A stretch of 21,787 nucleotides of DNA. It comes from a virus. The DNA lies in IMG/VR virus record IMGVR_UViG_3300037459_000026, positions 1 through 21,787 of that record. One strand, given 5' to 3'. Below the pieces are notes generated by a model. That model saw only the letters and a list, made by a program, of their open reading frames with translations, did not search any database and was not told the DNA's origin. A program made the translations under genes and the position numbers. Every line of letters starts with the position of its first letter. The stretch's first letter is position 1. This document shows, one piece after another, positions 1 through 14,971 of this stretch.

Positions 1-1020
1 ATTGATAAGTATGCCAATCAGGCAACAATGGCGCTTTACCCTAATACAATTCAATTAGGTGACGTTACAAAGTGGCGTGAATGGGAAATTGACTGGTCAA
101 CTATTGATTTATTGGTTGCTGGGTTTCCTTGTCAGGCTTGGAGTATGGCGGGTAAGCAAAAAGGCGACAGTGATCCGCGCGGCGCATTAGTTCATGATTT
201 AATTGATATTTGGAATAAAATAAAAGACAAAAACCCTAGCATGAAATTCATGTTTGAAAATGTGAAGATGAAAAAGGAATTTTTAGATTATATAAATGAA
301 TTGTTTGGTGTTGAGCCGATATGTATTAATTCTGCACTGGTTAGCGCTCAAAATAGAAAGCGTTACTACTGGACGAACATTAAAGGCGTTGATCAGCCGG
401 TCGATAAAGGTATTGGTTGGGGCGATGTTAGGGAGGTTGGCGTTAATGAATTTTATTATTCAGAAAAGGGTTTGCAGTGGCTCGCAAGACATAGCCAAAG
501 AAAGAATAAAACTTTAAATGTTTGGGGTGATAACGAAAAAGCCCAGATGTTAGAGGCTAGCCATTATAAGAATTATTCAGCACAAAGGTTTTTCGGGGTT
601 TGTGATTTGCCGAGTGATGAGTCTGTGATTGCATCAATGAGTGGCAGAAGGATAAATGAAAATGGAGTTAGGGTTGATAACGATAAAAGCATAAAAATAG
701 AGCAGTACGTTGAGTTTAAATACGATAATAAATCAAACTGTATTAGCACAGTGCAGAAGGATAACGTTGTTGTGCCGTTTACTCTTCCAAATAGAATCCC
801 TCTTGATATGTTCTTTTTTAGATACATAACACCAAGAGAGTGTATGAGGCTTCAAACAGTACCAGAAAGACATACAGACACATTATTGAACTCAGGTATT
901 AGTAACAGTCAGCTTTATAAAATGGCTGGCAACGGCTGGACTCATGACGTAATTGTCCATATTTTTAAAAACCTACCTAAGCGCAATGTGAACCTAGAAT
1001 TATTTGAGGAATTAACATGA
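1..1020 (+). CDS. DNA (cytosine-5)-methyltransferase, 5' end outside window
   Basis: This enzyme would transfer a methyl group from S-adenosylmethionine to C5 of cytosine in a DNA recognition site. The frame is open from base 1 (IDKYANQAT precedes the first ATG at 28), and that stretch fits the end of the SAM-binding region, so the start lies upstream and the ATG at 28 is internal. Counting from that ATG, the visible motifs are a GDV at 11-13, the catalytic GFPCQ at 32-36 (Cys35), ENV at 77-79, and QNRKR at 108-112. Near the C-terminus come RYITPRECMRLQ and then MAGNGW. The stretch between them should be the target-recognition domain; its site cannot be read. Motif I (the FxGxGG loop) is not in the window. 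The stop overlaps the next start by 4 bases (ATGA). No restriction endonuclease is visible, so it is probably an orphan enzyme protecting phage DNA. Confidence 0.93.
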   Translation: MDKYANQATMALYPNTIQLGDVTKWREWEIDWSTIDLLVAGFPCQAWSMAGKQKGDSDPRGALVHDLIDIWNKIKDKNPSMKFMFENVKMKKEFLDYINELFGVEPICINSALVSAQNRKRYYWTNIKGVDQPVDKGIGWGDVREVGVNEFYYSEKGLQWLARHSQRKNKTLNVWGDNEKAQMLEASHYKNYSAQRFFGVCDLPSDESVIASMSGRRINENGVRVDNDKSIKIEQYVEFKYDNKSNCISTVQKDNVVVPFTLPNRIPLDMFFFRYITPRECMRLQTVPERHTDTLLNSGISNSQLYKMAGNGWTHDVIVHIFKNLPKRNVNLELFEELT

Positions 1021-1256
1021 AAACAAAATTTAAACGCTTCATAGTTTTTACTCACGCAAGGCGTTACCCGTCTGGCGGCATGAGTGATTTTCAGGATGAC
1101 TTTGATTATGCGGATCAAGCAAAGGGCGCGGCTTTGGAATCGCTTAAAAAGTTCTACAAACTTTACGGCTCTGGCCCCGACCCTTTCACAACAACTGTTT
1201 TTGATTGCCAAAGACAGACAATAATTTTAAAGGTAACAAATGATGGCCAAGATTGA
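1017..1256 (+). CDS. Small hypothetical protein, 79 aa
   Basis: I do not recognise this protein. It begins in an ATGA overlap with the methyltransferase stop, with GAGGA about six bases upstream of the start, so it is probably translationally coupled to that gene. The product has a basic N-terminus (KTKFKRF, HARR), a central acidic patch (DFQDDFDYAD) and a C-terminal stretch that looks beta-rich. There is no signal peptide, membrane segment or Cys cluster. Its 3' end overlaps the next gene by 17 bases. The tight overlaps on both sides and the good ribosome binding site are the main reasons to believe it is real. Confidence 0.6.
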   Translation: MKTKFKRFIVFTHARRYPSGGMSDFQDDFDYADQAKGAALESLKKFYKLYGSGPDPFTTTVFDCQRQTIILKVTNDGQD

Positions 1257-1521
1257 ACTAATAGAAAATTTAACAAGTGTGTGCAATTCGATTGAGAAAA
1301 TTGAATTAGTTGAAAGCTTGAACAAAGGTGAAAAATTATTGTGCGCAACTTTTACGGGTGGAGTGGAATATTTGCAAATAATAAAAATGCCGCTTGATTT
1401 GCATGAGACTGGTATTGCGCTTGTTAAATTTGGCGAGTTTTTAATTAGTAAAAATGACCCTGATAATTTTGCGAATATGAGCTTTAACGATTATAAAAAA
1501 ATAATGTCGGAGAAAAGTTAA
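1240..1521 (+). CDS. Small hypothetical protein, 93 aa
   Basis: I do not recognise this protein. Two consecutive ATG codons (1240 and 1243) follow an AAAGG site; either could be the start, and the first has the more usual spacing. The first 30 residues contain a near-repeat (KIELIENL, then KIELVESL) and look helical. The rest is mixed, with no Cys cluster and no membrane segment. It overlaps the preceding gene by 17 bases, and its TAA is followed immediately by the ATG of the next gene, so it is embedded in the rightward operon. It may be a small accessory protein of the nin-like region, but the sequence shows no specific function. Confidence 0.6.
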   Translation: MMAKIELIENLTSVCNSIEKIELVESLNKGEKLLCATFTGGVEYLQIIKMPLDLHETGIALVKFGEFLISKNDPDNFANMSFNDYKKIMSEKS

Positions 1522-2022
1522 ATGCTTGACTCTGAAAAAGCGCGAGCTGCTGAAATAAATTATTACATGTCTATACCAAATACCACTTACAGCATTATTA
1601 CTGGAAAGCTAACAGCAAACAATAAAGGTGAAAGCGTGACTAAATCAAAAATATTTATTAACTGGAAAGATAAAAACGGTAAAGAAATAAAGCTTGGTGA
1701 TAAAATTTCTTATTATGAGTTGTTTCAATGTCATTCGGATGCGATTGAATATTTTGATGTTGAGCCACAAAATAACTTCCCAGTTCATGAGATTTTCATT
1801 CAAGAAAAATCGGGAATTGTTGTTTATGAGGATTGCGCTTTTAGGGTGAATGGTCGCGTTCTTAGTGAGCTGGGCAAGGAGGTATCTAATGAAATTATAG
1901 AGCTAGATTTAATGGGTTATCTAGGTATGGATCTAAATAGTTTTATATGGGAAGAATATTCTAGGCTGGAAATAACAAAAGGGCTTTCTCGGCTTGTAAA
2001 GGAGATTGAAATAAATGGGTAA
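1522..2022 (+). CDS. Hypothetical phage protein, 166 aa
   Basis: The start lies directly after the previous stop (TAAATG), with a GGAG site about nine bases upstream that overlaps the end of the preceding gene. The phrase WKDKNGKEIKLGDKIS (about 48-63) resembles the D-x-NGKEI-x-x-GD turn of YopX-type phage proteins, but the rest does not fit well and I would not assign that family. The middle (about 60-120) looks beta-rich, and the C-terminal 50 residues are acidic and helical. There is no signal peptide or membrane segment. The last 8 bases overlap the ninG start. It may be a small beta-barrel accessory protein; its function is unknown. Confidence 0.65.
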   Translation: MLDSEKARAAEINYYMSIPNTTYSIITGKLTANNKGESVTKSKIFINWKDKNGKEIKLGDKISYYELFQCHSDAIEYFDVEPQNNFPVHEIFIQEKSGIVVYEDCAFRVNGRVLSELGKEVSNEIIELDLMGYLGMDLNSFIWEEYSRLEITKGLSRLVKEIEING

Positions 2023-2647
2023 CTCAAAAAAAGAATGCAAATTTTGTGAGAAATATGTGCGAGTCGGCGAGGGCAAGCAAGTCCCCGCTGGGTTTTTCTG
2101 TAGCATTGACCATGCAATTAAATTTGCCAGAAAAAAAACGGATGATAAAAACGCGCGTCAGCAAATTAAAAATGAAAAGGTAAATTCTGACTTTGCAAAA
2201 ATTACAAAACTTCCAAAAATTAAACAGAAAGAATACCTGAGAACTCGCCCAGAATGGTATGACAAGCTACAAATGGTAGTCAATCAATGGATTGTACACG
2301 TACGAGACAAGGGTAAATCATGCTGTACGTGCAATACCGAAAAGCAAACTATCAAATATGACGCTGGGCATTGCTTTACCCGTGGCGCTCGTTCTGAGCT
2401 GCGTTTTGAGTTAACAAATATTCATATTCAATGCGGGTATTATTGCAATATGAATAATTCAGGATTTCAAGCAAAGCACAAAGTATTTATTTCTAAAAAA
2501 TATGGGGACGCTCATCTTGCGAAATTAGAAGATCGAACCGCGTGGCCAACTTTGAAAGAAAAGTTTCCACATACTGACGATATAAAAACGGAAATTTTAA
2601 GATGGAAATTAATATTAAGAGAAAATGGATTAACACCAAGAACATAA
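2015..2647 (+). CDS. ninG: NinG-like recombination protein (lambda NinG/Rap family)
   Basis: Lambda NinG (Rap) is a DNA-structure-specific endonuclease that promotes Red-dependent recombination. The 210-residue length is close to that of lambda NinG. Three features match: an N-terminal Cys pair (C8, C11) with C29 and H33 as a possible zinc finger; a basic helical linker (about 38-75); and a C-terminal HNH-like core. The core has CCTC at 103-106, DAGH at 116-119, LRFELTNIHIQC at 129-140, C144 and NNSG at 147-150, the same order as DAGH..., LRF..NIH.QC, CN..KSG in lambda NinG. AAGGAG lies about ten bases before the ATG, inside the previous gene. It is the last gene of the rightward operon and is followed at once by a terminator. 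Whether it cuts DNA as Rap does is inferred from the family. Confidence 0.88.
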   Translation: MGNSKKECKFCEKYVRVGEGKQVPAGFFCSIDHAIKFARKKTDDKNARQQIKNEKVNSDFAKITKLPKIKQKEYLRTRPEWYDKLQMVVNQWIVHVRDKGKSCCTCNTEKQTIKYDAGHCFTRGARSELRFELTNIHIQCGYYCNMNNSGFQAKHKVFISKKYGDAHLAKLEDRTAWPTLKEKFPHTDDIKTEILRWKLILRENGLTPRT

Positions 2648-2676
2648 AAAAAGCCCTGAATTAACAGGGCTTTTAT
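2648..2676. terminator. Bidirectional intrinsic terminator between converging operons
   Basis: A perfect 8-bp stem (AAGCCCTG, loop AATTAA, CAGGGCTT) spans 2651-2672. It has an A-run on its left side and TTTTA on its right, so it can end transcription from both strands. It starts just after the ninG stop and ends 15 bases before the tailspike stop codon on the other strand, exactly where two converging operons meet. Confidence 0.85.
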
Positions 2677-2686
2677 TTGCGAAACT

Positions 2687-4915
2687 CTAAGTTGTGCTAT
2701 CTGTTATTAATCCATAACTCACTAATGCGGTTAATATACTGGCCAGTGCTGCATTGCCGCCCCGCGAACCTGTAATATCTGGCTTTACAATAGGTGTGCT
2801 ATCGTTAAATCCAACGCCGTCAGCATTTACAGCTATACCTGCAACGCCATTTGAGGCCAACCCTACAGTGTTAAGAGAGAAAAATATTCCCACACCATCC
2901 TCGTCTCTTTTTGTCAAAATCGGGTCGGTTGCGTCGGTCGATTTATGCTGGATTTTAGTTTGAACGAGTAGAGCATTATTAGATTGCACTCGTATCTCTC
3001 TTAGATTCGTGCCTGCTGACTGGATATTACCTATATTAATTATATTTCTAGGTTTATTGTTTACAAATACAGTTCCGTCGGGTGTATTTACTTCGCGCCC
3101 TAAATTCCTCCATCCGTCAACAATATTATCGACAACACTACAATCAATCGTCCCGTCAATTTCAAACGCCGTGCCTAATGATGCAGTGTTGTAGACGGCT
3201 TTTTGGCCTAGCGCTTTGTTATTTCTAACCATCGTATTTTCTGTGTTTAACACATCTATAAAGTTAAACTCTAAAGCTGTGATAATTGAAACACCGTCTG
3301 CCAGTAAAGCCCCACTATTAAATGCATAATTGTTTTTTATTGTCGCATCGTCGCAAGCGTCCACCTTTACAGTAACAAGACACTCTAAAGCCGCGTTATC
3401 TTTTATTGTGCATTTTATAACCGCAAACCCTGAAACTTGCTCACACAAATAAGCTCTTACACAATTAGTCGCGGTGTTTTGATATATTTCTAAATTTCTG
3501 ATTATTCGCTTTCCAGCCGCCCCGTGAAAGCAATTTTTAAACGTGTTTTTACAAATAGTGACACTACTGTCAATATCTGCATTCTGACTAGCAGACGCAT
3601 ATACCCCTAAATCTCTATTCCCAATGCAAATGTTGTCAGTTATAAGCATTTGGATTGCTCCACTCGCAAAAATACCAGAATCGCCCCCCGCAATTTCCCA
3701 GTGATCACCAGCATTAGTTTCAACACCTGTAATAAGTAGTATATTAGCTCCCGCCTCTGTGTCGCTGCTTATCAAAAGCTTGAAGCTCAGTCCGTCACAT
3801 GTTGCGCTTGATCCTGGGTTTGCTGGTGGATAGTCGCCAGAAAACGGTATCACAGTCGAGTTTTTCTGGTCTGACTGATCAAATTTCCCGCCAATCCATG
3901 TCACCGATTCAATAGCCGCAGAAAGCGATTGGTCTGCGGTTATTCTTATCATGTCGTTATCTAGTGCATCCGTGTAAAATCTCACCCCCTCTTCACAAAG
4001 AATATAAGTATCACGACTAATGACTGCCGACACTCCGCCAGAATCCGGGCCGGTTCCCTCGATAAAATAATCTTGTGATATAAATTTCTTTTTGACGTGA
4101 TTAAACTCAATAAATTTTTCAATTATTGAAGTTTTATCATTGGTATCATCAGTTATTCCAAACATCACGCTTGTTAAATACTCGCCAATTTGCCTAACCC
4201 AAGCCCCGCCCGATCCGGTGCCGCTTAAATAAGGAACATAAACACCATTTTCGGGATCTGTGGCGGCCTCCGTCGATAAATCCGAAGAGTCCCAAATAAA
4301 CAACCCGCTTCGTCCGCCATCCGAAAGCTCTACTTGTTGCCCATTTTTATATGCTTTTATATTTGACAGGTCGGATGCCGAATAAACAACTTGACCAGAT
4401 TCGTAATCAATAATAAACGCTTGGATAATATCCAGGCTTGGGTCTAGTGCTTCGTCAACGCTCGCTGTGATAATTGTATTAGGGGCTGAATAAATAGCGG
4501 TTTCAATTACTCCAAACACATTGCCGCTATTTTGTTGTAGCCTGATTTTTCGGCCTTCATTAAATAGTGAAACTTGGTTGCCCACAATTGAAAAACTTGA
4601 AGGGCTGATATATGTTGCAGTTATGTCGGACAGCCATTCTGACGCTGTATTGTTTGTAACAGGGTCGCTTGTCCATATTTCGTTATCGTCAGAGTCTTTA
4701 AGTACAAACTTATAAGAGCCGGATAGATAAACGTCAGCATAACCTTCCGCATTCAATATGACCGGATTAGTGTTTGCAACTAGCTGATTTTCACTTTTAT
4801 AAGTGTCTTTAGGTATATTTGTTTGCACTTCGTATGTGTATAGCTTGCCGCCCACTAAAGGCAAACCATCCACATCCCAACCATAAAACTTAGGCCCAAT
4901 AACTGCTACTGCCAT
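2687..4915 (-). CDS. Tailspike, beta-helix receptor-binding protein
   Basis: This is the host-surface-binding protein at the virion tip, likely a trimer and possibly a polysaccharide depolymerase. Residues 1-95 are the particle-binding domain common in phage spikes (PKFYGWDVDGLPLVGGKLYT, then NPVILNAEGYADVYL and YKFVLKD). Residues 96-255 hold a connector with GGRSGLFIWDSSDLS at 200-214 and GAWVR at 237-241, which in many spikes precedes the helix. Residues about 255-635 have the Asn-rich, short-strand rhythm of a right-handed parallel beta-helix and an unusual number of cysteines. The C-terminus ends with VKPDITGSRGGNAALASI and ITDSTT, a tail seen in many phage spikes. I cannot point to catalytic residues. 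AAGGGG overlaps the stop of the giant gene, so translation is probably coupled. It is the last gene of the late operon. Confidence 0.88.
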   Translation of the reverse strand: MAVAVIGPKFYGWDVDGLPLVGGKLYTYEVQTNIPKDTYKSENQLVANTNPVILNAEGYADVYLSGSYKFVLKDSDDNEIWTSDPVTNNTASEWLSDITATYISPSSFSIVGNQVSLFNEGRKIRLQQNSGNVFGVIETAIYSAPNTIITASVDEALDPSLDIIQAFIIDYESGQVVYSASDLSNIKAYKNGQQVELSDGGRSGLFIWDSSDLSTEAATDPENGVYVPYLSGTGSGGAWVRQIGEYLTSVMFGITDDTNDKTSIIEKFIEFNHVKKKFISQDYFIEGTGPDSGGVSAVISRDTYILCEEGVRFYTDALDNDMIRITADQSLSAAIESVTWIGGKFDQSDQKNSTVIPFSGDYPPANPGSSATCDGLSFKLLISSDTEAGANILLITGVETNAGDHWEIAGGDSGIFASGAIQMLITDNICIGNRDLGVYASASQNADIDSSVTICKNTFKNCFHGAAGKRIIRNLEIYQNTATNCVRAYLCEQVSGFAVIKCTIKDNAALECLVTVKVDACDDATIKNNYAFNSGALLADGVSIITALEFNFIDVLNTENTMVRNNKALGQKAVYNTASLGTAFEIDGTIDCSVVDNIVDGWRNLGREVNTPDGTVFVNNKPRNIINIGNIQSAGTNLREIRVQSNNALLVQTKIQHKSTDATDPILTKRDEDGVGIFFSLNTVGLASNGVAGIAVNADGVGFNDSTPIVKPDITGSRGGNAALASILTALVSYGLITDSTT

Positions 4916-4926
4916 GATATTTCCCC

Positions 4927-7900
4927 TTAATTAATTTTAGATTCTTCGTTTTTTACTTTTTCAAGTATTGATTTAAATTGCTTCAAGCTGTCTTCAAACG
5001 TTTTATTTCTCGACGTTAACCGCTCAATATGTTTTTTCTCTTTTTCTGCCGCTGTTAACTTCGGGTCTCGATCAGAAATAATAATACCCAGTGACCACTC
5101 TTTGTACGCTTTGTTTATTTCACGCATTGGGGCTGCTAGTACAGATAAAGTTAACTCTTCTTTGCTCGCTGCTATACCTCCGCGCTTTGTGCCTTCAATA
5201 ATTTGTTGCAAATCGGTAGTGCTTGATTTTGATGCCTCAATCGCTTCACCATAAAGCTTGTAATATGCCGTCGTGTATTTAGTTCTGAATGTTCGCTCAC
5301 TAACTTTAAATTGGCGAAAGGAAATATCAGCAAAGCTTTTTTGAAATGGTCTTTCGCCCCACGCCTCATAATCCCAAAACAACCTATCGGTATACTCTTT
5401 CATGTATTCCGAATAATAACCAATTGAATTTTTTATCACATATTCAGTTTTTATAGGCGAAAGATTAATCCCAAATTTTGATTTTAAGTTTTGCGATAAC
5501 TCAACCAACCCCATACTTGTTCGTGAGTTGTATTGCTGGAATGCTTTCACGTCCGTTAAATTTGCTGGAACAATTGGGGACCCTTTCCAGTCCTCGCCCG
5601 ATATGAAATCGAGTGGCAATTGAAGTATTGAAGGTGATCCACTTAAAACCATGTGATAACCCAAAGCAAAAAGGACATCATCTTTTAAAAACTCTTTGTC
5701 TTCATCTGGGTTTAAATGCTGATTAATTCCAATTTCAGACATGGCCATACTGAATCCAAAAACACCAATAGGCTTGGGCAATTTGGTGCCGCCTGGTAAA
5801 TAAATAAATCGGCTTCGCTCGTCTGGTGTTAAATTTCTATAAGTTTCACGGTCTTCTTCGTCGTCAGAATTCACCATCAAATAAGCTGACATCATAGCAA
5901 GCCCGCTCAACATCATCATAACGCCATACATACGCGCCTTAACCGATTCAATTGTTAAGATACCCTTTTCATCTTTATACCAATTAGAAAGCTTCATTTC
6001 TCCATTAACTTCAAAGATTGCCTCCATTTCACGCATAAATCCCATCATACCCGCGTTAAGGAATGCGGACGTTCTGACAGCGTAAGCAAGCTGAGGATTG
6101 GATCCATGCTTTTGAAAGTCGGTGGTAATTTGACGCGTTTGCCATGCAGCTTCAACAGGATCAACCCCCGCTTTCCGCTGCTCTGCGTAAAAACCAACAC
6201 GAGTCATCATCTCTGTAACGTCTGCTACTTTGGTGTAAGCAAAGACTAATTCTTTTGCGATTCTTAGGGGTGATTTATACCAAGCCTTATTGCTTAAATA
6301 TTGAGTGTTTGAACCTGCCAAACCCCAGCTATCGTACATAGCACTTTGCATGCGGCCGCCTGAATAGCCACCATTACCTCTTAATTCACCAACCAAGCCA
6401 TTTTTATTCCACAGCGATTCAGTCATGTGGGCCAACCCTCGTATGTGGCTGATAACCGGCTTAAATTTAAATCCACTTAATGCCATTGCTGTTGCTGAAT
6501 CTCTAAAAATGTTACCGCCTGCAAACTGCCATGCACTTGTAATACCTAAAGTTTTAAAGTTTTTATAAATTAAAGGCAATTTTGCAAGTGCTTTAACATA
6601 CGGATTTTTTGGTAAATTCATTCCGTTCAATGAATCGATCATTGAAGGTAAGAGCGTATTATCTTCATTAATTTGAATCCACTTTGTATCGCCATTTTCA
6701 TCAATGTATGAATCAAAATCGGTGCGCTTATCTTTTGGAGGATGGCCGAATGTCCAAAATTTCAGAAGATCGGGATTACTGTTTAAGTAGATGATTAGCT
6801 CAACCATTGTTTTAACCGGTTGACCGTTATGCTCAAATTCCAAATCACTTACTTTTAACGCGTTTTTGGTTCCCGTTTGTAGAATAGTTTTTGCTATTTG
6901 ATCGGCATCAATTGTGATTGGTTTAACGTCTGTTGTTGCCTCGGTTATAAACTGACTTCCACCCTGTTTAACATCTTTACCGCCACCCGCTAAAGTCTGC
7001 TCATAAAGTCCACGCATAGCACGAGCTTTTAAAGCTGCGGCAATATGAATACCTGTCTGCTTTAGGGTGTTGTTATAAATATGTAATACACTTTCTTCTG
7101 ACCCACTTTGACGCGCCCCAATATTGCTACCAGCACCAGCGCCATCTTTATCAAGCCCATGTATTGCCCTGTGAAACGCCACGTAAGCAGTGTTATTTTT
7201 AAGGAATGCATTCATAGAGCTTTGGCTGATATAGCCGCTGTCCACGTAAAATTGAAGCATAGCTTTGTTGAATATTTGAAAGTCTGCGAACGCCTTTTTG
7301 AAGTATGGGAATTTTTCACCAAGAGCCAAACCTTCTCGAATCATGCCTTTTGTAAATAATTTCTCAGTACCTTTTTTAGTGGCTTCTTCTGCCCGTCGCG
7401 ATGCAAAATATGCCTCTTGATCTTTAATGCGGTTATGACCTTCTTTTTTAGATTGGCCCCAAACCTTATCAAGGCTCATACCTTTAAAATCAAGAGAGCC
7501 ATCTTTTTTGTAATAAGGCGCACCACGCTTATAGGATTCTGCAAAAATCTGATCCGCACCATGTAACAGTTGTAATAATTTATACGGCTCGCTAACACCT
7601 TCGGTTAATCCGCCCTTAACTTCACGGCTCATTACTTTTGCAGCATGCAGATAATCGAAAACACCTTGCTTAAATTCCGCCCCAATTTCTGCCTGATTAA
7701 GTCTCATAACTTTTTCACGCATAGTTAAGCTTTTATTTAATTTGGTTTCACCTGATATACCTTCAACCAATCTAGCTTTATCACCCTGAAAATACCAACG
7801 GTGCATTTTTACCTGCAAGCCGTATAATTTATTTTTAAGTGATTTGTTTTTATTTAAATAATGTTCAAAAGCTCTGGTAAATTTAGGCGCTTTCTCAACT

Positions 7901-10900
7901 GCGTAATCATAATTTGTTAACCATGCTCTAACGTATTCAGCAAAACCTTCTGTAAGTAATAATTTTTCATCACTCGTATAGCTAAATAATTTAATCTCTG
8001 CCTCATACTCAGGCTTGGAATAAATCTCTTTAATTTGGCGGCCACCTTTATAATAAAAATCAAGAAAATGAGCCATTTCATGCGCAAGGGTTTCAACGTC
8101 ACCGTATTTATCAAGCCTTAATTCGCCATTAACTGTGTTGTAAAATCCAGCAATGTCCTTGCCTTTGATGCGATTGTAATAAAGGCGCTTACCAATAATA
8201 CTTTTCGTATGCATGATAATGCCCTCACGCCTCTGGGGATTTTGCTCACTACTGCTTTTTATTTTCTTTCCACGCAATAAGAAAAACTCTTTTCGTGCTG
8301 GCATTTCACCGGCTTTTTCGCGCTTATAATAAGATGGCGGGTTATTAATCATTGGCCCGTCTTTAGTTTTATTCTGGACAGCATTAAGCGCATTATCTTC
8401 TTGCAAAGGCAGGTGCTCTTTACTCGCTGGTTCCATTTCTATTTTTTGTTTGGGGGTGAAAGTCCTGCTATATAAAACGCCATCGCTTGCACTTTCTTCG
8501 GTGCGAGTAGATTTTAAAACGCCTTTAGGTTTTGGTGATTTTGCTTCGATGAATTCTTGATGTAATGGACTGACGTTTTCGGGCACTTCCTGTTTTGCCC
8601 CAGTTTCGGAGGTTAAAATTTCATCATTAAGGATAACTAGGTTTTTGGCTGTCTGCTTCCCACTTCCTGTTGGTGTTATATCTTGATCGAAAAATGATAT
8701 TGCAGTTTTACCCATTTCTTTTAGTTTATTTTTAAGCTTGATAACATTTTCTTTGCCAATAAATTGCTCAAACTCAGGGTCTAATAATTCGTAAATAGAT
8801 GCCTCATCCAAATCCCACGAATCATCTAGTGGCTTTATATCTAGGCCGTCCATTATTTCAAGAGCCGCATCTTCATCTAAAATACTAGGCTCATCAATTT
8901 GAAACTCTTTAACAACCCCCTCATTACCTTCCGCGTACGCCTCTGCCTGCTTAATATCTTCCGCTACAAACAATAAACCTTCTGACTGCCTACCAGGAAC
9001 ATCCAAAGTGCCGCCATGATAAAAGGTTTTTAATGGTAGGTCGCTGGGCCTTTTGGATGCCAAGACGGGGTCAACTTTAGTTGAAATCTTCACTTCCTGT
9101 TTTTCAGCTAAATCTTTTCTGGTAAATGTGGTAGAGCCATCTTCGTTAATGGTTTTATTGAATTGCTGATTTGCGAATGTGCGAACCAGCCCCTTAAGCG
9201 CCACGCCTTTCGGAAGGGTAAACTCTTTAATTGCATCCTTATTTATGTAATCAGTTTTAAATTCATTTCCGCCAATTATCCCAGTTGATGGTTTTTTATT
9301 AATCTCACCCGATACTAAACTTCCATCAAATACAATTTGAACGCCTTTGTTTTTGTCTTGGCCTAATGCTAAATCCTTGTCGTCAGTTACGAAAATTGAG
9401 GTTACTGCACCTTTGTCAGAATTATTTGACAGCGTTTCACGCAAAAGACCCGTAACGCCTTCAATGCTAGTTTCACGATAAAGCTCTTTGTTATTAATTG
9501 CTTTTGGCGTGAATACTACAGAACCAGCGCTTACTTTTTCAGGCATTGATTTGGCTTGTTTTTCCAGTTCAGTTTTAGGCTCGACAATTTCAGATGCTAC
9601 GGGTTTTTCAGTCTCAATCTCTTTTCCGGCAGCCTCTACTTCTGGCTGTCCTGCTTTAGTTTCCACTGGCTCGACAACTTCAAAACCCTCTGGAATCTCA
9701 AGCGCAGTAGGCTCAACTTCGGTGGGTAAATTAGTTTGATCAATGTCAAAAACACCCGTTGGCTCTGTGGTCATTTCTGGTAAGTCGGCTATTTCTTCAT
9801 CGGTTATTGCAGTGTCGTCCTGCTCGCGAACTAAGTCAAAACCGTCTGGCAATTGAGTATCTTCAAATTGAAAGCTTTCGATATTTTTGTTTATTTCTTG
9901 CTCAATTTTTTGGGCTTCTGTGTCTGCGCCGGGCACTGCTGCCGACATAACCGCGCCACTTGTTCCGCCCACAATACCAGCTTGTACAATTCTTTTAATT
10001 GCCTGATCTAATGGGGTGTTTTTGTCAAGAATCCCTTGCTCAAGGCCAATATGAAAGCCCTCAGTAATTGACTCTGTGATACTTTCCGCGCCTGCTGTCT
10101 TGGTCATTTTTCCAAGAAAATTATCAGACTGTTTTAACATTGCGCCCAATGGAATTTTTTCTAATATTCCAGAAACTAAGGCTTTAGAGAATGAAATTTT
10201 AAGTTTTTGATCGGGTGTTAAATTAGGGTCAACCATGTGCTGCGCATATTCAGAACCAAACTCCAAAGTAAAAAAGGCGGATGCACCTATTTTTGGGTTA
10301 CGAGTAATTGCACTTGCAACAATTGCGGGGGTCATGTGCACCAAACTTTCGCCAGTTCGAGCAAATAGCCATTTTAAAGGATCGTCACCAGTTGAATATT
10401 TACCCTTTTTCTCTTCAAGCGCTTTTGATTGTTCGCCTAAATCATTTAAATGCTCGCTTAATAATTGCTTGCTTGTTTCGTTATACGTCATTTTCCACTT
10501 TTCGTTTTCTGGCTTGGTTAATTCCAATTCACGGTAAACGTTAAGCATTCCATCAACTATAAAATTAAGTTCTTTTTCATCAATCGTTCCGTTTTTATAA
10601 TCACGGATATATCCATCAATTTTATTTTTAGGGTCAAAAGTTTCGGGGGTGCTTTGTAATGGGTTGGCTGAATACATAGATTCAACAACAGTTAATTGCT
10701 GCGCTGTCTTTTCGTCCAAGCCACTTTTTTGATACTGATCTATTTCTTTTTCATAGTAATTTAATTGAGAAGCTTTTAAACCGAGCTTAGTTTGGCCCCA
10801 ACCCTCTTTAGCATTCACCAAAAAGCGGCCTGCAATTTCTGCATAAGTACTTTCATCTGTAGGACGCTGACGAACAATTTGTAAATCTTTTGTATCGTTT

Positions 10901-11724
10901 AAATAGTTTTTACGCGCTTGCTTGCCTTGATTTGATAGCTCTTGCTGTTTTTGTTTAGCTGCCACGTAATCAAGCACCTCACCAGCGGTTAACGAGTCAG
11001 CGCCTTCCTGTTCAACTTTGTAGTCAAGATCAGCAACGGTTTGTTGAATAAGGTTAAATTTACGTTCAATCTGAAATTGAGAGCTTTCAAAGTCGGATGT
11101 TCTGGCCTTGTATTTCTTTTCAAGTTTTTTAGTCCAGCGAAATTTGGCTTCTGCATCCATCGGGATTACAGCATCTTGCACTGTTGTATTTTTAATCATG
11201 CCGCGTGGCAAATCATCTTTGTCTCTGCGACTTTCATAACTCGCTACGGTTTCGGGTGACCCGCTTACATCGATTAAAGTCATACCGTCGGGCAGGTTTT
11301 TATAATCCAAATCTGGGAAATCATTCTTATAACGATTAACGACAACTTGTTGCGCTGTATCGGATTTAAGTTTCAACTTCATTTTGTTTCGGAGTTTGCG
11401 CATTTTGTAGCGATTGTCAGATAAAAAGAAATCGGACTTTGCCTGGGTTTCAAGGTCAAAAGGAATGTTTCGGCCTTGATCCAACTCATTGCCTAAAGGG
11501 GTGAATTCTTGAGGCTGAACAGGCTCTTGAATTAATGGTTCTTGCTGTGTGAACTCTTGTTGAATTGGCTGTGACTCAATAATTTGAGGCGCATCCTGTG
11601 ACACAACTTCAAAACCAGAAGGCAGGCCGCCCACTGGCTCACTTGGCGCTAATTCAAAACCCTCTGGTAATCCAGTGCTGGGGGTTTGGTCTACTACTTC
11701 AAAACCTTCGGGCAATGCTGGCAT
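4927..11724 (-). CDS. Giant polyvalent virion protein (putative ejected protein in gp16 position)
   Basis: This 2265-residue protein is probably packaged in the head and injected with the DNA; it stands where P22 encodes ejection protein gp16 (609 residues). From the N-terminus: three LPxGFE repeats (4-41); a helical charged region (100-600) ending in a Gly/Ala-rich hydrophobic stretch (579-599); an acidic linker with two more LPxGFE-like motifs (601-730); an ADP-ribosyltransferase-like domain (about 736-846, LYRETS then SIFVTDD and GNEF); a second one (about 897-1040, FYHGG then AEAYA); a zincin motif HEMAH (1215-1219) with TEGFAE (1258-1263); and a long helical half (1300-2265) with a hydrophobic segment at 1932-1951. 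This mix is typical of phage polyvalent proteins. No lysozyme or transglycosylase motif is evident. GTGAG precedes the ATG. The frame is intact, with no sign of frameshift. Domain calls come from reading motifs and are unconfirmed. Confidence 0.85.
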   Translation of the reverse strand: MPALPEGFEVVDQTPSTGLPEGFELAPSEPVGGLPSGFEVVSQDAPQIIESQPIQQEFTQQEPLIQEPVQPQEFTPLGNELDQGRNIPFDLETQAKSDFFLSDNRYKMRKLRNKMKLKLKSDTAQQVVVNRYKNDFPDLDYKNLPDGMTLIDVSGSPETVASYESRRDKDDLPRGMIKNTTVQDAVIPMDAEAKFRWTKKLEKKYKARTSDFESSQFQIERKFNLIQQTVADLDYKVEQEGADSLTAGEVLDYVAAKQKQQELSNQGKQARKNYLNDTKDLQIVRQRPTDESTYAEIAGRFLVNAKEGWGQTKLGLKASQLNYYEKEIDQYQKSGLDEKTAQQLTVVESMYSANPLQSTPETFDPKNKIDGYIRDYKNGTIDEKELNFIVDGMLNVYRELELTKPENEKWKMTYNETSKQLLSEHLNDLGEQSKALEEKKGKYSTGDDPLKWLFARTGESLVHMTPAIVASAITRNPKIGASAFFTLEFGSEYAQHMVDPNLTPDQKLKISFSKALVSGILEKIPLGAMLKQSDNFLGKMTKTAGAESITESITEGFHIGLEQGILDKNTPLDQAIKRIVQAGIVGGTSGAVMSAAVPGADTEAQKIEQEINKNIESFQFEDTQLPDGFDLVREQDDTAITDEEIADLPEMTTEPTGVFDIDQTNLPTEVEPTALEIPEGFEVVEPVETKAGQPEVEAAGKEIETEKPVASEIVEPKTELEKQAKSMPEKVSAGSVVFTPKAINNKELYRETSIEGVTGLLRETLSNNSDKGAVTSIFVTDDKDLALGQDKNKGVQIVFDGSLVSGEINKKPSTGIIGGNEFKTDYINKDAIKEFTLPKGVALKGLVRTFANQQFNKTINEDGSTTFTRKDLAEKQEVKISTKVDPVLASKRPSDLPLKTFYHGGTLDVPGRQSEGLLFVAEDIKQAEAYAEGNEGVVKEFQIDEPSILDEDAALEIMDGLDIKPLDDSWDLDEASIYELLDPEFEQFIGKENVIKLKNKLKEMGKTAISFFDQDITPTGSGKQTAKNLVILNDEILTSETGAKQEVPENVSPLHQEFIEAKSPKPKGVLKSTRTEESASDGVLYSRTFTPKQKIEMEPASKEHLPLQEDNALNAVQNKTKDGPMINNPPSYYKREKAGEMPARKEFFLLRGKKIKSSSEQNPQRREGIIMHTKSIIGKRLYYNRIKGKDIAGFYNTVNGELRLDKYGDVETLAHEMAHFLDFYYKGGRQIKEIYSKPEYEAEIKLFSYTSDEKLLLTEGFAEYVRAWLTNYDYAVEKAPKFTRAFEHYLNKNKSLKNKLYGLQVKMHRWYFQGDKARLVEGISGETKLNKSLTMREKVMRLNQAEIGAEFKQGVFDYLHAAKVMSREVKGGLTEGVSEPYKLLQLLHGADQIFAESYKRGAPYYKKDGSLDFKGMSLDKVWGQSKKEGHNRIKDQEAYFASRRAEEATKKGTEKLFTKGMIREGLALGEKFPYFKKAFADFQIFNKAMLQFYVDSGYISQSSMNAFLKNNTAYVAFHRAIHGLDKDGAGAGSNIGARQSGSEESVLHIYNNTLKQTGIHIAAALKARAMRGLYEQTLAGGGKDVKQGGSQFITEATTDVKPITIDADQIAKTILQTGTKNALKVSDLEFEHNGQPVKTMVELIIYLNSNPDLLKFWTFGHPPKDKRTDFDSYIDENGDTKWIQINEDNTLLPSMIDSLNGMNLPKNPYVKALAKLPLIYKNFKTLGITSAWQFAGGNIFRDSATAMALSGFKFKPVISHIRGLAHMTESLWNKNGLVGELRGNGGYSGGRMQSAMYDSWGLAGSNTQYLSNKAWYKSPLRIAKELVFAYTKVADVTEMMTRVGFYAEQRKAGVDPVEAAWQTRQITTDFQKHGSNPQLAYAVRTSAFLNAGMMGFMREMEAIFEVNGEMKLSNWYKDEKGILTIESVKARMYGVMMMLSGLAMMSAYLMVNSDDEEDRETYRNLTPDERSRFIYLPGGTKLPKPIGVFGFSMAMSEIGINQHLNPDEDKEFLKDDVLFALGYHMVLSGSPSILQLPLDFISGEDWKGSPIVPANLTDVKAFQQYNSRTSMGLVELSQNLKSKFGINLSPIKTEYVIKNSIGYYSEYMKEYTDRLFWDYEAWGERPFQKSFADISFRQFKVSERTFRTKYTTAYYKLYGEAIEASKSSTTDLQQIIEGTKRGGIAASKEELTLSVLAAPMREINKAYKEWSLGIIISDRDPKLTAAEKEKKHIERLTSRNKTFEDSLKQFKSILEKVKNEESKIN
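7915..8112 (-). other. Zinc-metallopeptidase (gluzincin-like) motif region of the giant protein
   Basis: Within the giant protein, ETLAHEMAHFLDFY (residues 1211-1224) has the HExxH zinc-binding signature, with H1215 and H1219 as ligands and E1216 as the general base. About 40 residues further on, LTEGFAEYVRAW (1257-1268) supplies a Glu in the position of the third ligand in gluzincins (E1259 or E1263). Both halves of the site are intact, so it could be active. A role as a maturation protease in the head or as a protease inside the host cannot be told from sequence. Confidence 0.75.
8605..9036 (-). other. Second ADP-ribosyltransferase-like domain of the giant protein
   Basis: Residues about 897-1040 start with LKTFYHGG, the first strand seen in H-Y-E type ARTs. 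There follow LLFVAEDIKQAEAYAEG (917-933), the usual strand-helix with a Tyr, and KEFQID. The segment ends with AKNLVILND (1026-1034), where the family normally has a Glu or Gln just before the hydrophobic strand; here that position is Lys or Asn. The fold assignment is plausible, but catalysis is doubtful. Confidence 0.55.
9187..9519 (-). other. First ADP-ribosyltransferase-like domain of the giant protein
   Basis: Residues about 736-846 contain ELYRETS (747-753), a strand starting with an Arg as in R-S-E ARTs. Next are TSIFVTDDKDLALG (775-788), a strand-helix step with Ser776, and GGNEFKTDYINKDAIKEFTL (818-837), with a Glu before the last strands. These could be an R750-S776-E821 triad, which would use NAD+ to modify a host target. 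This is read from spacing and motif style only. Confidence 0.5.
11602..11715 (-). repeat. Three tandem LPxGFE motifs, 15-residue spacing
   Basis: The N-terminus of the giant protein carries LPEGFEVV (4-11), LPEGFELA (19-26) and LPSGFEVV (34-41), exactly 15 residues apart. LPDGFDLV (625-632, bases 9829-9852) and IPEGFEVV (677-684, bases 9673-9696) recur in the acidic linker ahead of the ART-like domains. The even spacing and conserved core suggest a short docking or processing motif rather than a folded domain. Confidence 0.85.
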
Positions 11725-11737
11725 TTTTTATCTCACT

Positions 11738-11758
11738 TATTAACTATTAACTATTAAC
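11738..11758 (-). repeat. Three copies of 7-bp GTTAATA at a gene end
   Basis: Read on the minus strand, GTTAATA occurs three times without a break across the last codons and stop of the 356-residue gene and into the gap before the giant gene. The TAA stop lies inside the array and would survive the loss of one unit. The array also sets the distance to the GTGAG site of the giant gene. Confidence 0.8.
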
Positions 11759-12817
11759 TGGAACCCACTGACCATTTACCATGCGCAATGATTCGCCTGT
11801 TGATGGGTTTCTGATCACCGTACCTTCTTGATATTGTGGTGCCGCCTGCGTTTGGGCCGGCGCTGGCGTTGGTGTCGCTGGTTCTGGTGCTGGCGCATTT
11901 TGTGGGCCTCTTAATGAATCTTGTAAGAAGCCGGGCAAATTGCTTAGATTGTCTGGGGCATCTCCAACGCGGATATCAAATTTATTCGCCGCTAATTTAA
12001 CAGCCTCCCCGCGAGTTATTCGCCCGTTTTCTTTTGCGAAAATATTGGCCGCTTCGGTTGAAATTGAAACTACAAGATTCGCCTTTTCCGGGTCAAGAAC
12101 TGTGATATTCCCATCTTGATCCATTATTCCTCCAAGCAAGCCGACAACCTTTCTATCCATTAAACTTTCGTCTGCGCTGCTTATTTTGAATGATTTTCCT
12201 CCACCGCCCAAAGCTTTTGATTTAGCATTAAGACTATTCTGGCTCGCAGTACGCTCAAGCTCTTGACCACTTTTGTATAAAATGTCCTCACTTCCAAAAT
12301 TAACCGCCTTCGGATTTTCAAGTATTTTCTCCATCGGTATTGCACGAGCAAGTGATAGCGATACAAAATTAGGATCAAACTGCTCTGGCATACTTGCCTG
12401 AACTTCGGTCGATAGCGATTGACGCGCCCTACTGTATCTCGAAGCCTGCTCTTCTGGCGTTTTACCCTCCATTACAAATGCGGATATAGTGCCCATTTCG
12501 TCAACGTTTCGCTTCATTGCTTCAAGTTGATTTTTATCCGCATTATAAACTGCCTCCATAAATTTAGGGCCGTTTTTGGGGTCAAGTGAAATTAATTGTT
12601 GCGCATCCGCCTGACTACCACCCGCCGCACTTTGACGCAAACCAGTTAAAACATTTTGGCGCTTTTGTTCTGCTGCCTGCTTTGCTGGGCGCTGCTCAAT
12701 CATTAATCTTTTTTCATCTAAGTCAATTTGACCTGATTGGTTTTTTATTCTTGAGCCTTTAATGGCTTCGACATTGCCCAAAATTGAACCCATGTCAATA
12801 CCGTATTTGTTAGCCAT
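11747..12817 (-). CDS. Putative internal virion / DNA ejection protein (gp20 position)
   Basis: This 356-residue protein lies between a gp7-like gene and the giant gene, where P22 encodes gp20, a protein that leaves the head with the DNA. The N-terminal 200 residues are predicted helical, with Gln/Ala-rich segments such as RPAKQAAEQKRQNVLTGLRQ (48-67) and a small-domain pattern (LISLDPKNGPKFMEAV, then EEQASRYSRARQSL) often seen in phage internal proteins. A Pro/Ala linker (about 309-328) leads to a short C-terminal module, NPSTGESLRMVNGQWVPV. There is no membrane segment or known catalytic motif. AAGGGG lies six bases before the ATG and overlaps the end of the upstream gene, so the two are coupled. 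Function is inferred mainly from position; it is shorter than P22 gp20 (471). Confidence 0.7.
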   Translation of the reverse strand: MANKYGIDMGSILGNVEAIKGSRIKNQSGQIDLDEKRLMIEQRPAKQAAEQKRQNVLTGLRQSAAGGSQADAQQLISLDPKNGPKFMEAVYNADKNQLEAMKRNVDEMGTISAFVMEGKTPEEQASRYSRARQSLSTEVQASMPEQFDPNFVSLSLARAIPMEKILENPKAVNFGSEDILYKSGQELERTASQNSLNAKSKALGGGGKSFKISSADESLMDRKVVGLLGGIMDQDGNITVLDPEKANLVVSISTEAANIFAKENGRITRGEAVKLAANKFDIRVGDAPDNLSNLPGFLQDSLRGPQNAPAPEPATPTPAPAQTQAAPQYQEGTVIRNPSTGESLRMVNGQWVPVNS

Positions 12818-12820
12818 GAT

Positions 12821-13585
12821 TTACCCCTTTTGATTTGAGTTATATTTTTTATTCGCTAAATCGTAAGTAAGCCAATTACCAACGGCTTGATTGCCAATAT
12901 TCGCGACATCCGTATAGGCTCCGCCTCGAACGGCACCAGTGTTATAGGCCGCATTTGCCGCGCTCTGACCTTGCGCGTTTAATATATTACCAGTGGTTTG
13001 AGCAAGGTTTGATGTTGCTTGTGCCTGTCCTGCTGCTGAGGATTGGCCGCCCTGAGACAATCCTGACAAAATATTGAATTTACGGTTCTTTGCTTCCAAA
13101 TCACGAGCGTAATTTGTGGCTTGCTTATTAACTTCACGAGAATAAGCATTGCCATATTCTTGGCTTGCCACATTTTGAGCGTAAGCATTGACGCCTTTTT
13201 GCTGGGCCCCACTTAATAATCGGCCCCTTGAAGCTGCTGACTTATCTAGCGCCTCGATACCTTGGTTTAATCTAAATTTATAACCTGGGTCTTGAGTTAC
13301 ATCAATGCTACCAACTTGATACTGGCTTGGGTCAACATCAAACGAGCCGTCATTAATGCCTTGCTGGATTTGCTGTAAGGCTTGCTGCCCAGTTTCACGC
13401 CACGGAACAAAATCTTCTCGCTGCTGATTTGCCATTTCTTGTTGAAAGGCTAGGTTTTTATCAGCCATTTCAGCCTGAGCTTGTGTGCCTTTTTCAATAC
13501 CTTCTACTTGAGCATCCGCCGCTTTACTAGACGAATATAAACTCAATAATGCAGAGCCGCCAATGGCCAAAGCAATTGCACTCAT
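12821..13585 (-). CDS. DNA transfer/ejection protein, gp7-like
   Basis: The 254-residue product resembles a common podophage internal protein: a hydrophobic N-terminus (residues 3-17), a Gln/Ala-rich helix (20-57), and then PWRETGQQAL. The best-conserved region is DPGYKFRLNQGIEALDKSAA (99-118), followed by SRGRLLSGAQQKG and SQEYGNAYSREVNKQA; this DPGYxFR...ALxxSAAxRG pattern recurs in virion proteins needed for DNA delivery. The C-terminal third is low-complexity, rich in Gln, Ala, Asn and Gly. P22 gp7 is of similar size (229) and lies at the same place in the gene order. The start overlaps the previous stop in an ATGA. The role is inferred from family and position; it probably acts in the mature head and during injection. 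Confidence 0.8.
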   Translation of the reverse strand: MSAIALAIGGSALLSLYSSSKAADAQVEGIEKGTQAQAEMADKNLAFQQEMANQQREDFVPWRETGQQALQQIQQGINDGSFDVDPSQYQVGSIDVTQDPGYKFRLNQGIEALDKSAASRGRLLSGAQQKGVNAYAQNVASQEYGNAYSREVNKQATNYARDLEAKNRKFNILSGLSQGGQSSAAGQAQATSNLAQTTGNILNAQGQSAANAAYNTGAVRGGAYTDVANIGNQAVGNWLTYDLANKKYNSNQKG

Positions 13586-14143: not shown

Positions 14144-14971
14144 TTAGGTGGTCATTTGGCCGGATGTTTTGCTATTTAACAGTAATTCGTTAAGCACTGC
14201 AATTGCGGCATTTAAGTCTGATGCAAGATCGTTAATGGCTGCTTTGTTTTCATTTGTTAGTGTTGCTTGTAAATCGGTATACGCTTGATCATAAGAGGCT
14301 GGCGCGGCTGCAATATCAGCGGTTACAATGCTTACCGTGGTATCAGCTGCATCCGCTATGCTGGTCATTCTTTTAACAAGCCCAACAACTAACTCGGTTG
14401 ATAAATCGTTAAACCCTACAATATCCCCGTTTGATCCATGCGCGGATTCTAGCGCATCATGGTCTGTTATTGCTGTTGCGTTGTTTCCAATATCAGTTGT
14501 GTTAGTCCCTATATTTGTTGTATTGGTGCCGATATTAGTTGTGTTAGTTCCTATGTTTGTTACGTTGGTGCCAATACTTGTTGTGTTTACTGTTATGGCT
14601 GCCGCATTGTTCCCAATATTTGTCACGTTTGTTTCAATATTGTCTGTATTTTCTTCAATGTCGGCTGTGTTGGCGATAATGTCTGTCGTATTCTGCTGTA
14701 TATCAAGCTTGCTTTGAGTGATATCACCTTCGTTTACTTCGATTCTATCCTCATGATTTTGCGCGATATCTTTTAAATCTGCGATAGTTTCGGCATCTTC
14801 GATTACCCGATCGTCTAAGTCATCAATTGCGTTGCCACCTTTGTATGATGTTCTTCGGTACAGATCGCGGAACCAATTTGACCAGGCTGAATTCAGCTGT
14901 CCAGACTTATCCGACATGGGAGTCATAAGAGGTGGCTGTGATACATTGTTGACTTGATTATTTGTAGCCAT
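14144..14971 (-). CDS. Tail needle-like trimeric coiled-coil protein (gp26 position)
   Basis: In P22 the needle gp26 plugs the portal channel and helps pierce the outer membrane. This 275-residue protein has the same genomic position and overall style. The N-terminus (SGQLNSAWSNWFRDLYRRTS, 23-42) resembles the attachment segment of other phage tail proteins. A helical stretch (50-90) leads to eleven unbroken heptads of the type IxxNTTx (91-167), which predicts a parallel three-stranded coiled coil. The C-terminal 105 residues are Ala/Thr/Asp-rich and form either a tip or a continued helix, with no membrane segment. It starts in a TAATG overlap with the gp10-like gene. It could instead be a thin fibre, but the neighbours favour a needle. 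Confidence 0.8.
   Translation of the reverse strand: MATNNQVNNVSQPPLMTPMSDKSGQLNSAWSNWFRDLYRRTSYKGGNAIDDLDDRVIEDAETIADLKDIAQNHEDRIEVNEGDITQSKLDIQQNTTDIIANTADIEENTDNIETNVTNIGNNAAAITVNTTSIGTNVTNIGTNTTNIGTNTTNIGTNTTDIGNNATAITDHDALESAHGSNGDIVGFNDLSTELVVGLVKRMTSIADAADTTVSIVTADIAAAPASYDQAYTDLQATLTNENKAAINDLASDLNAAIAVLNELLLNSKTSGQMTT
14471..14701 (-). repeat. Eleven Ile/Asn heptads in the needle (21-bp units)
   Basis: Residues 91-167 of the needle form eleven heptads with Ile at every first position (91, 98, ... 161) and Asn at every fourth (94, 101, ... 164). In the core of the array three successive units read IGTNTTN. At DNA level the units are 21 bp long and differ mostly at synonymous positions. 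IxxNTTx heptads are known from trimeric autotransporter stalks, where the buried Asn residues coordinate an anion. Confidence 0.9.

Follow-up and report, generated by a model that had tools for sequence, protein, structure and literature searches.

A giant gene within a P22-type morphogenetic block

The DNA analysed here, referred to as the window, is an entire IMG/VR record of 21,787 bases derived from a marine, P22-like phage in which a giant protein occupies the place of a small DNA-ejection protein (Table 1). The gene encoding this protein is surrounded by a P22-type morphogenetic block, all of it on the same strand, that comprises the portal (PF16510, 1.5e-106), a putative scaffold assigned by position, the coat (PF11651, 5e-29), a gp4-like adaptor, a gp10-like Hc3 protein (phrog_578, 6e-132) and a needle-like protein, and that continues through a short tail-fibre-like protein, a gp7-like ejection protein and the gp20 slot to the giant and a tailspike-like protein. 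Late virion genes adjoin the giant gene, as they do those of phage polyvalent proteins. The order gp7, gp20, giant, tailspike was found again in about 16 distinct related contigs, and the placement of the giant is therefore not a matter of chance.

Table 1. Position of the giant gene, its neighbours and its sub-regions in the window
Feature	Position	Strand	Residues and remarks
Giant polyvalent gp16-slot protein	4927..11724	-	2265 aa; intact ORF, ATG start, no internal stop
Gp20-slot protein	11747..12817	-	phrog_36852
Gp7-like DNA-ejection protein	12821..13585	-	phrog_598, 1e-39
Tailspike-like protein	2687..4915	-	weak NosD beta-helix match
N-terminal tag, three tandem LPxGFE motifs	11599..11724	-	residues 4, 19, 34; proposed virion-loading signal
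Gly/Ala-rich hydrophobic module	9889..10353	-	residues 458-612; proposed membrane-crossing part
Fourth and fifth LPxGF[DE] motifs	9676..9852	-	residues 625 and 677; acidic linker
ART1-like domain	9085..9522	-	residues 735-880; R750, T780, E821 candidate R-S/T-E residues
ART2-like domain	8590..9042	-	residues 895-1045; H903 present, strand-2 Tyr replaced
Zincin-like metallopeptidase	7735..8307	-	residues 1140-1330; HEMAH 1215-1219, D1222, EGFAE 1259-1263
Helical chassis	4930..7734	-	residues 1331-2265; no counterpart found among solved structures
Pfam LPD38	5380..5847	-	residues 1960-2115; E=4.5e-14

A preliminary description of this DNA had assigned the giant to the slot of P22 gp16, and the gene does follow the gp7-like and gp20-slot genes and precede the tailspike. 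In P22, gp16 likewise lies after gp20 and before the tailspike, but an immunity region intervenes between gp16 and the tailspike. P22 gp16 has 609 residues (PMC8954989), so that the giant is 3.7 times its length, in agreement with the "almost four times" first given. Kinship by sequence is another matter: neither BLASTP nor profile comparisons, applied to the chassis and the hydrophobic module, detected homology to P22 gp16, and an ejection role thus rests on position. Among the annotated genes of the complete genome of Shewanella phage X14, the region from the gp20 slot to the tailspike holds no gp16 of its own, and it is this slot without another gene, together with position and the hydrophobic module, that suggests a gp16-like role for the giant. 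As injection machines, the P22-type phages rank with the most thoroughly studied; what occupies the gp16 slot in this one appears to be a modular carrier of enzymes.

Several other features of the window were recorded. The protein in the needle position (14144-14971, minus strand) has no significant similarity to P22 gp26 and carries consecutive seven-residue repeats of the TNIGTNT type, which suggests a trimeric shaft. At the left end, positions 28-1020 (plus strand) encode a C-5 cytosine DNA methylase (PF00145, 2e-26); Vibrio phage 1.211.A likewise has genes annotated as C-5 cytosine DNA methylase beyond its tailspikes. The product of positions 2015-2647 (plus strand) belongs to the NinG family of recombination proteins (PF05766, 6e-27) and weakly matches PtuB (0.0016).

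A conserved C-terminal half and its relatives

Residues ~1066-2265, which comprise the zincin, a helical part of ~940 residues and LPD38, form a conserved chassis, and conservation throughout the relatives of the giant covers residues about 1096-2265. The long, mostly helical C-terminal half with a hydrophobic segment that had been described is present, the hydrophobic stretch lying at 1932-1953. When the whole protein was used to scan viral and genome collections directly, nothing matched; a profile built from a five-sequence alignment of the C-terminal half detected the chassis in 75 viral contigs, and one built from a 32-sequence alignment detected it in 34 bacterial contigs. A tblastn search of phage genomes returned 28 records, including Thalassomonas phage BA3, Vibrio phages VvAW1 and 1.211 and phage X14, in all of which the slot is likewise occupied by a giant protein. 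Among the relatives, we noted an apparent single in-frame stop in the chassis region of the giant gene in two contigs (L023, around 3603-3605; L048, around 10721-10723), and in a third (L108) the giant seems to be split into three open reading frames (1078-7881, 7895-10999 and 10873-13212), with the cargo apart from the chassis.

LPD38 is the sole Pfam domain recognised in the giant, where it scores above the curated cut-off, and was found in all 32 aligned sequences; PADLOC and NCBIfam searches gave no match for the giant. Phage polyvalent proteins were described in 2017 as multidomain virion proteins with a zincin hub, ARTs and LPD38 (PMC5512222). As had been proposed, the giant belongs with them: it is a further member of this known class, sharing with the proteins of Iyer et al. 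its great length, the combination of zincin and LPD38 with putative unrelated enzyme domains, and its place beside late virion genes. It differs in that its pair of ART1-like and ART2-like cargo domains was found in no other sequence examined, and in that its ART1 matches no Pfam family. The idea that the giant is an undescribed version therefore holds for its domain combination but not for its kind.

The zincin was borne out by its HExxH motif and downstream glutamate, and H1215, E1216, H1219, D1222, E1259 and E1263 are invariant or nearly so in the 32-sequence alignment. Its identity is solid by motif, and the domain is a predicted protease; the Pfam family MPTase-PolyVal matched it weakly (0.049 at best, in 3 of the 32 sequences). 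At E<=1e-3, an AF2 model of the chassis (pLDDT 74.5) has 64 matches among predicted viral proteins, many of them named LPD or polyvalent. No solved relative of the chassis fold could be found: Foldseek comparison of the model with solved structures gave none at E<=0.001, the matches of highest probability (0.57-0.63), which span about 155 columns of a mycobacterial regulator, being not significant, and neither the whole protein nor the chassis alignment matched any solved structure by sequence.

Comparison with characterised phages links this chassis to virions. The chassis profile matched BcepIL02 gp70 (1e-41) across the helical part and LPD38; the Bcep22-like giants (BcepIL02 gp70, JC1 gp69) differ in their length of about 4,500-4,700 residues and in leaving the zincin part of the profile unmatched. 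JC1 gp69 was identified by 51 unique peptides in mass spectrometry of CsCl-purified virions (PMC9144972). The presence of this group of chassis homologues in virions is accordingly supported, the link to JC1 running through BcepIL02 gp70 and published kinship, and by its kinship to JC1 gp69 the giant of the window is probably injected with the DNA. The product of BA3 gene 0002 (2631 aa) shares with the giant its slot, its chassis (28-32% identity) and ART1 (54-61%), but differs in a methyltransferase domain, in the absence of a match to ART2 and in its N-terminus. The VvAW1 'DarB-like' protein (3640 aa) shares the slot, the chassis (32.5% identity) and the hydrophobic module; its cargo, however, is an Eco57I-type methylase and a helicase. 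In layout the giant also resembles the C-terminal domain of the N4 vRNAP (PMC12633501), in which an HExxH zincin is followed by a helical part of ~110 kDa without a known structural relative. The N4 protein, another ejected giant, carries an RNA polymerase as cargo, and its C-terminal domain did not match significantly by sequence (hhalign probability 0.3%).

The names given to some of these relatives raise the alternative that the giant is a DarB-type antirestriction protein. VvAW1 and the Bcep22-like phages have relatives so annotated, and the methylase-helicase cargo of VvAW1 suits the name. We consider this reading improbable for the giant of the window, since no methylase or helicase domain was recognised in it and its chassis and hydrophobic module have no detectable homology to P1 DarB; comparisons with P1 DdrB and DarA detected none either. 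P1 DarB is better regarded as a functional analogue.

Exchange of the N-terminal half and the ART-like domains

The nearest relative of the giant, encoded by contig L010, is 64% identical to it across 1190 columns of the C-terminal half and unrelated upstream. At the DNA level the similarity ends at window nucleotide 8531 (residue ~1065), where the linker that precedes the zincin begins, and the genes flanking the giant in L010 are homologous to those of the window. Other relatives carry different enzymes in this region: ART-PolyVal in L011 (3.7e-16), an inorganic pyrophosphatase (InPase) in L019 (2e-49), a methylase with an SNF2 helicase in L020, GNAT with a methylase in L030, and ddrB-ParB (3e-35) with PBECR1 in L045. 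These comparisons are direct evidence, at the level of sequence, that the whole N-terminal half is replaced as cargo while the chassis stays. Within the L010 giant, residues ~1180-1410 hold an ART-like stretch that Pfam does not recognise and, after it, a GNAT-like domain.

The cargo of the window's own giant had been described as including two ART-like domains, a proposal that holds in part. ART1 has relatives in BA3 and L086 only (64% identity in the latter). An AF2 model of the domain (pLDDT about 70-84) has ART-fold proteins prominent among its best Foldseek matches (Scabin, Rhs toxins and others), at E values of 0.1-0.6, none of them significant, in a list that also includes unrelated beta proteins; a search of solved structures by sequence gave no match. 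Fold thus lends ART1 weak support. ART2 is suggestive only. It had no relative in the viral contigs or phages searched when taken alone, no Pfam match, including to PF18760 (absent also from the records of the relatives, L011 excepted), and only chance matches in a sequence search of solved structures. Against a home-made ART-PolyVal profile it scored 8.4 bits, and none of about 1,940 shuffles did as well, but this score is equalled by a few fragments from other giants, among them one from L010 that also looks ART-like by eye. When ART2 was examined for the histidine of strand 1, the tyrosine of strand 2 and the aspartate of strand 5, H903 was present, the tyrosine was replaced by leucine, and the aspartate could not be assigned; most residues of the region were modelled with pLDDT <40. 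ART2 is a possible ART domain, perhaps catalytically altered. Of the candidate catalytic domains, then, the zincin is secure on its motif, ART1 has weak backing from its fold and ART2 is marginal, and the N-terminal domains look like ADP-ribosyl-transferring, protein-modifying enzymes.

These results bear on the possibility that the giant is mainly a structural ejection protein whose ART-like domains have no activity or act as folded spacers. The missing strand-2 tyrosine of ART2, the lack of a significant match between ART1 and a known enzyme, and the plasticity in size of gp16-type proteins (PMC8954989) are all in its favour. We nevertheless regard it as unlikely. The ART1 sequences of BA3, L086 and the window are 54-64% identical within a half of the protein that otherwise changes rapidly, all three keep R750, T780 and E821, residues that would fit an R-S/T-E site, and other members of the group carry clear enzymes.

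Tandem N-terminal motifs and a proposed route of delivery

The giant contains five copies of LPxGF[ED], against a mean of 0.02 in shuffled sequences. The domains had been thought to be linked by these repeats, which is only partly right, because none of them joins ART1, ART2 and the zincin; three copies stand at the extreme N-terminus and two between the hydrophobic module, which is common to many relatives, and ART1. Tandem motifs at the N-terminus are a new lead from this analysis, and a literature search found no earlier description, although one may exist. Scored against shuffles of the first 80 residues with a threshold of z=4, such motifs were present in 22 of 93 chassis proteins and in 6 of 372 other open reading frames of the same contigs, and 1.6% of internal windows passed. 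The Fisher p-value of 6e-12 is optimistic, because a simple rule was used to pick the start codons and the set was incompletely purged of related proteins. More than ten different motif types occur among these N-termini, and many other chassis proteins have a common N-terminal module of 48 residues.

We favour, with fair confidence, the explanation that the giant is a phage polyvalent ejection protein in which exchangeable cargo is attached to a conserved chassis. The giant would be synthesised late and loaded into the procapsid by its LPxGFE-bearing N-terminal tag together with the chassis; we infer this function of the tag by analogy with P1 DarB, whose first 30 residues target it to the capsid (PMC9024508). 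The chassis and hydrophobic module would act as the constant parts responsible for placement in the virion and passage through the envelope, in the stead of gp16. On infection the gp7- and gp20-like proteins would accompany the giant out of the virion, the hydrophobic module may help it to cross the inner membrane, the zincin would probably cut the cargo from the chassis at their linker inside the host, and ART1, perhaps with ART2, may modify host proteins early. If cargo is indeed exchanged behind a constant chassis and a short N-terminal tag, the arrangement is directly testable in laboratory phages and would account for the many unrelated enzymes that annotations assign to giant 'DarB-like' genes.

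The action of the zincin is the step at which another course is a serious, if less probable, contender: the protease may cleave host proteins, or process virion proteins at assembly, rather than set cargo free inside the host. Both roles have been discussed for polyvalent zincins, and P1 DdrB is cut before packaging while the N4 vRNAP is packaged uncut (PMC5512222). Nothing specific speaks against them; the position of the zincin, right at the junction of cargo and chassis, favours auto-release without proving it. More speculatively, the tandem motifs (LPxGFE here; GFxPL, DxEFxxLD, NAFDQFD and LSFL in relatives) might constitute a general, interchangeable address tag that governs loading into the virion or order of exit, such that tag, hydrophobic module, zincin and helical chassis form constant parts able to deliver any cargo enzyme. 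We put this forward tentatively, as a doubtful generalisation.

Tandem motifs that differ in sequence from one another were seen at window positions 11599-11724, at the N-termini of the giants in L011, L031, L043, L051, L065, L069 and L073, and in L092-L094, L106, L109, L122 and other contigs. One of the six other open reading frames passing z=4 lies in L108, where it adjoins the split giant. In L011, residues 1-45 carry tandem LPEGFE motifs, and at the same place L086 has the 48-residue FRxxNPxY...KYYSDIP module, the two being interchanged; homology between the proteins sets in at about residue 40 of L011, with a stretch that starts VDETTIEQPL.
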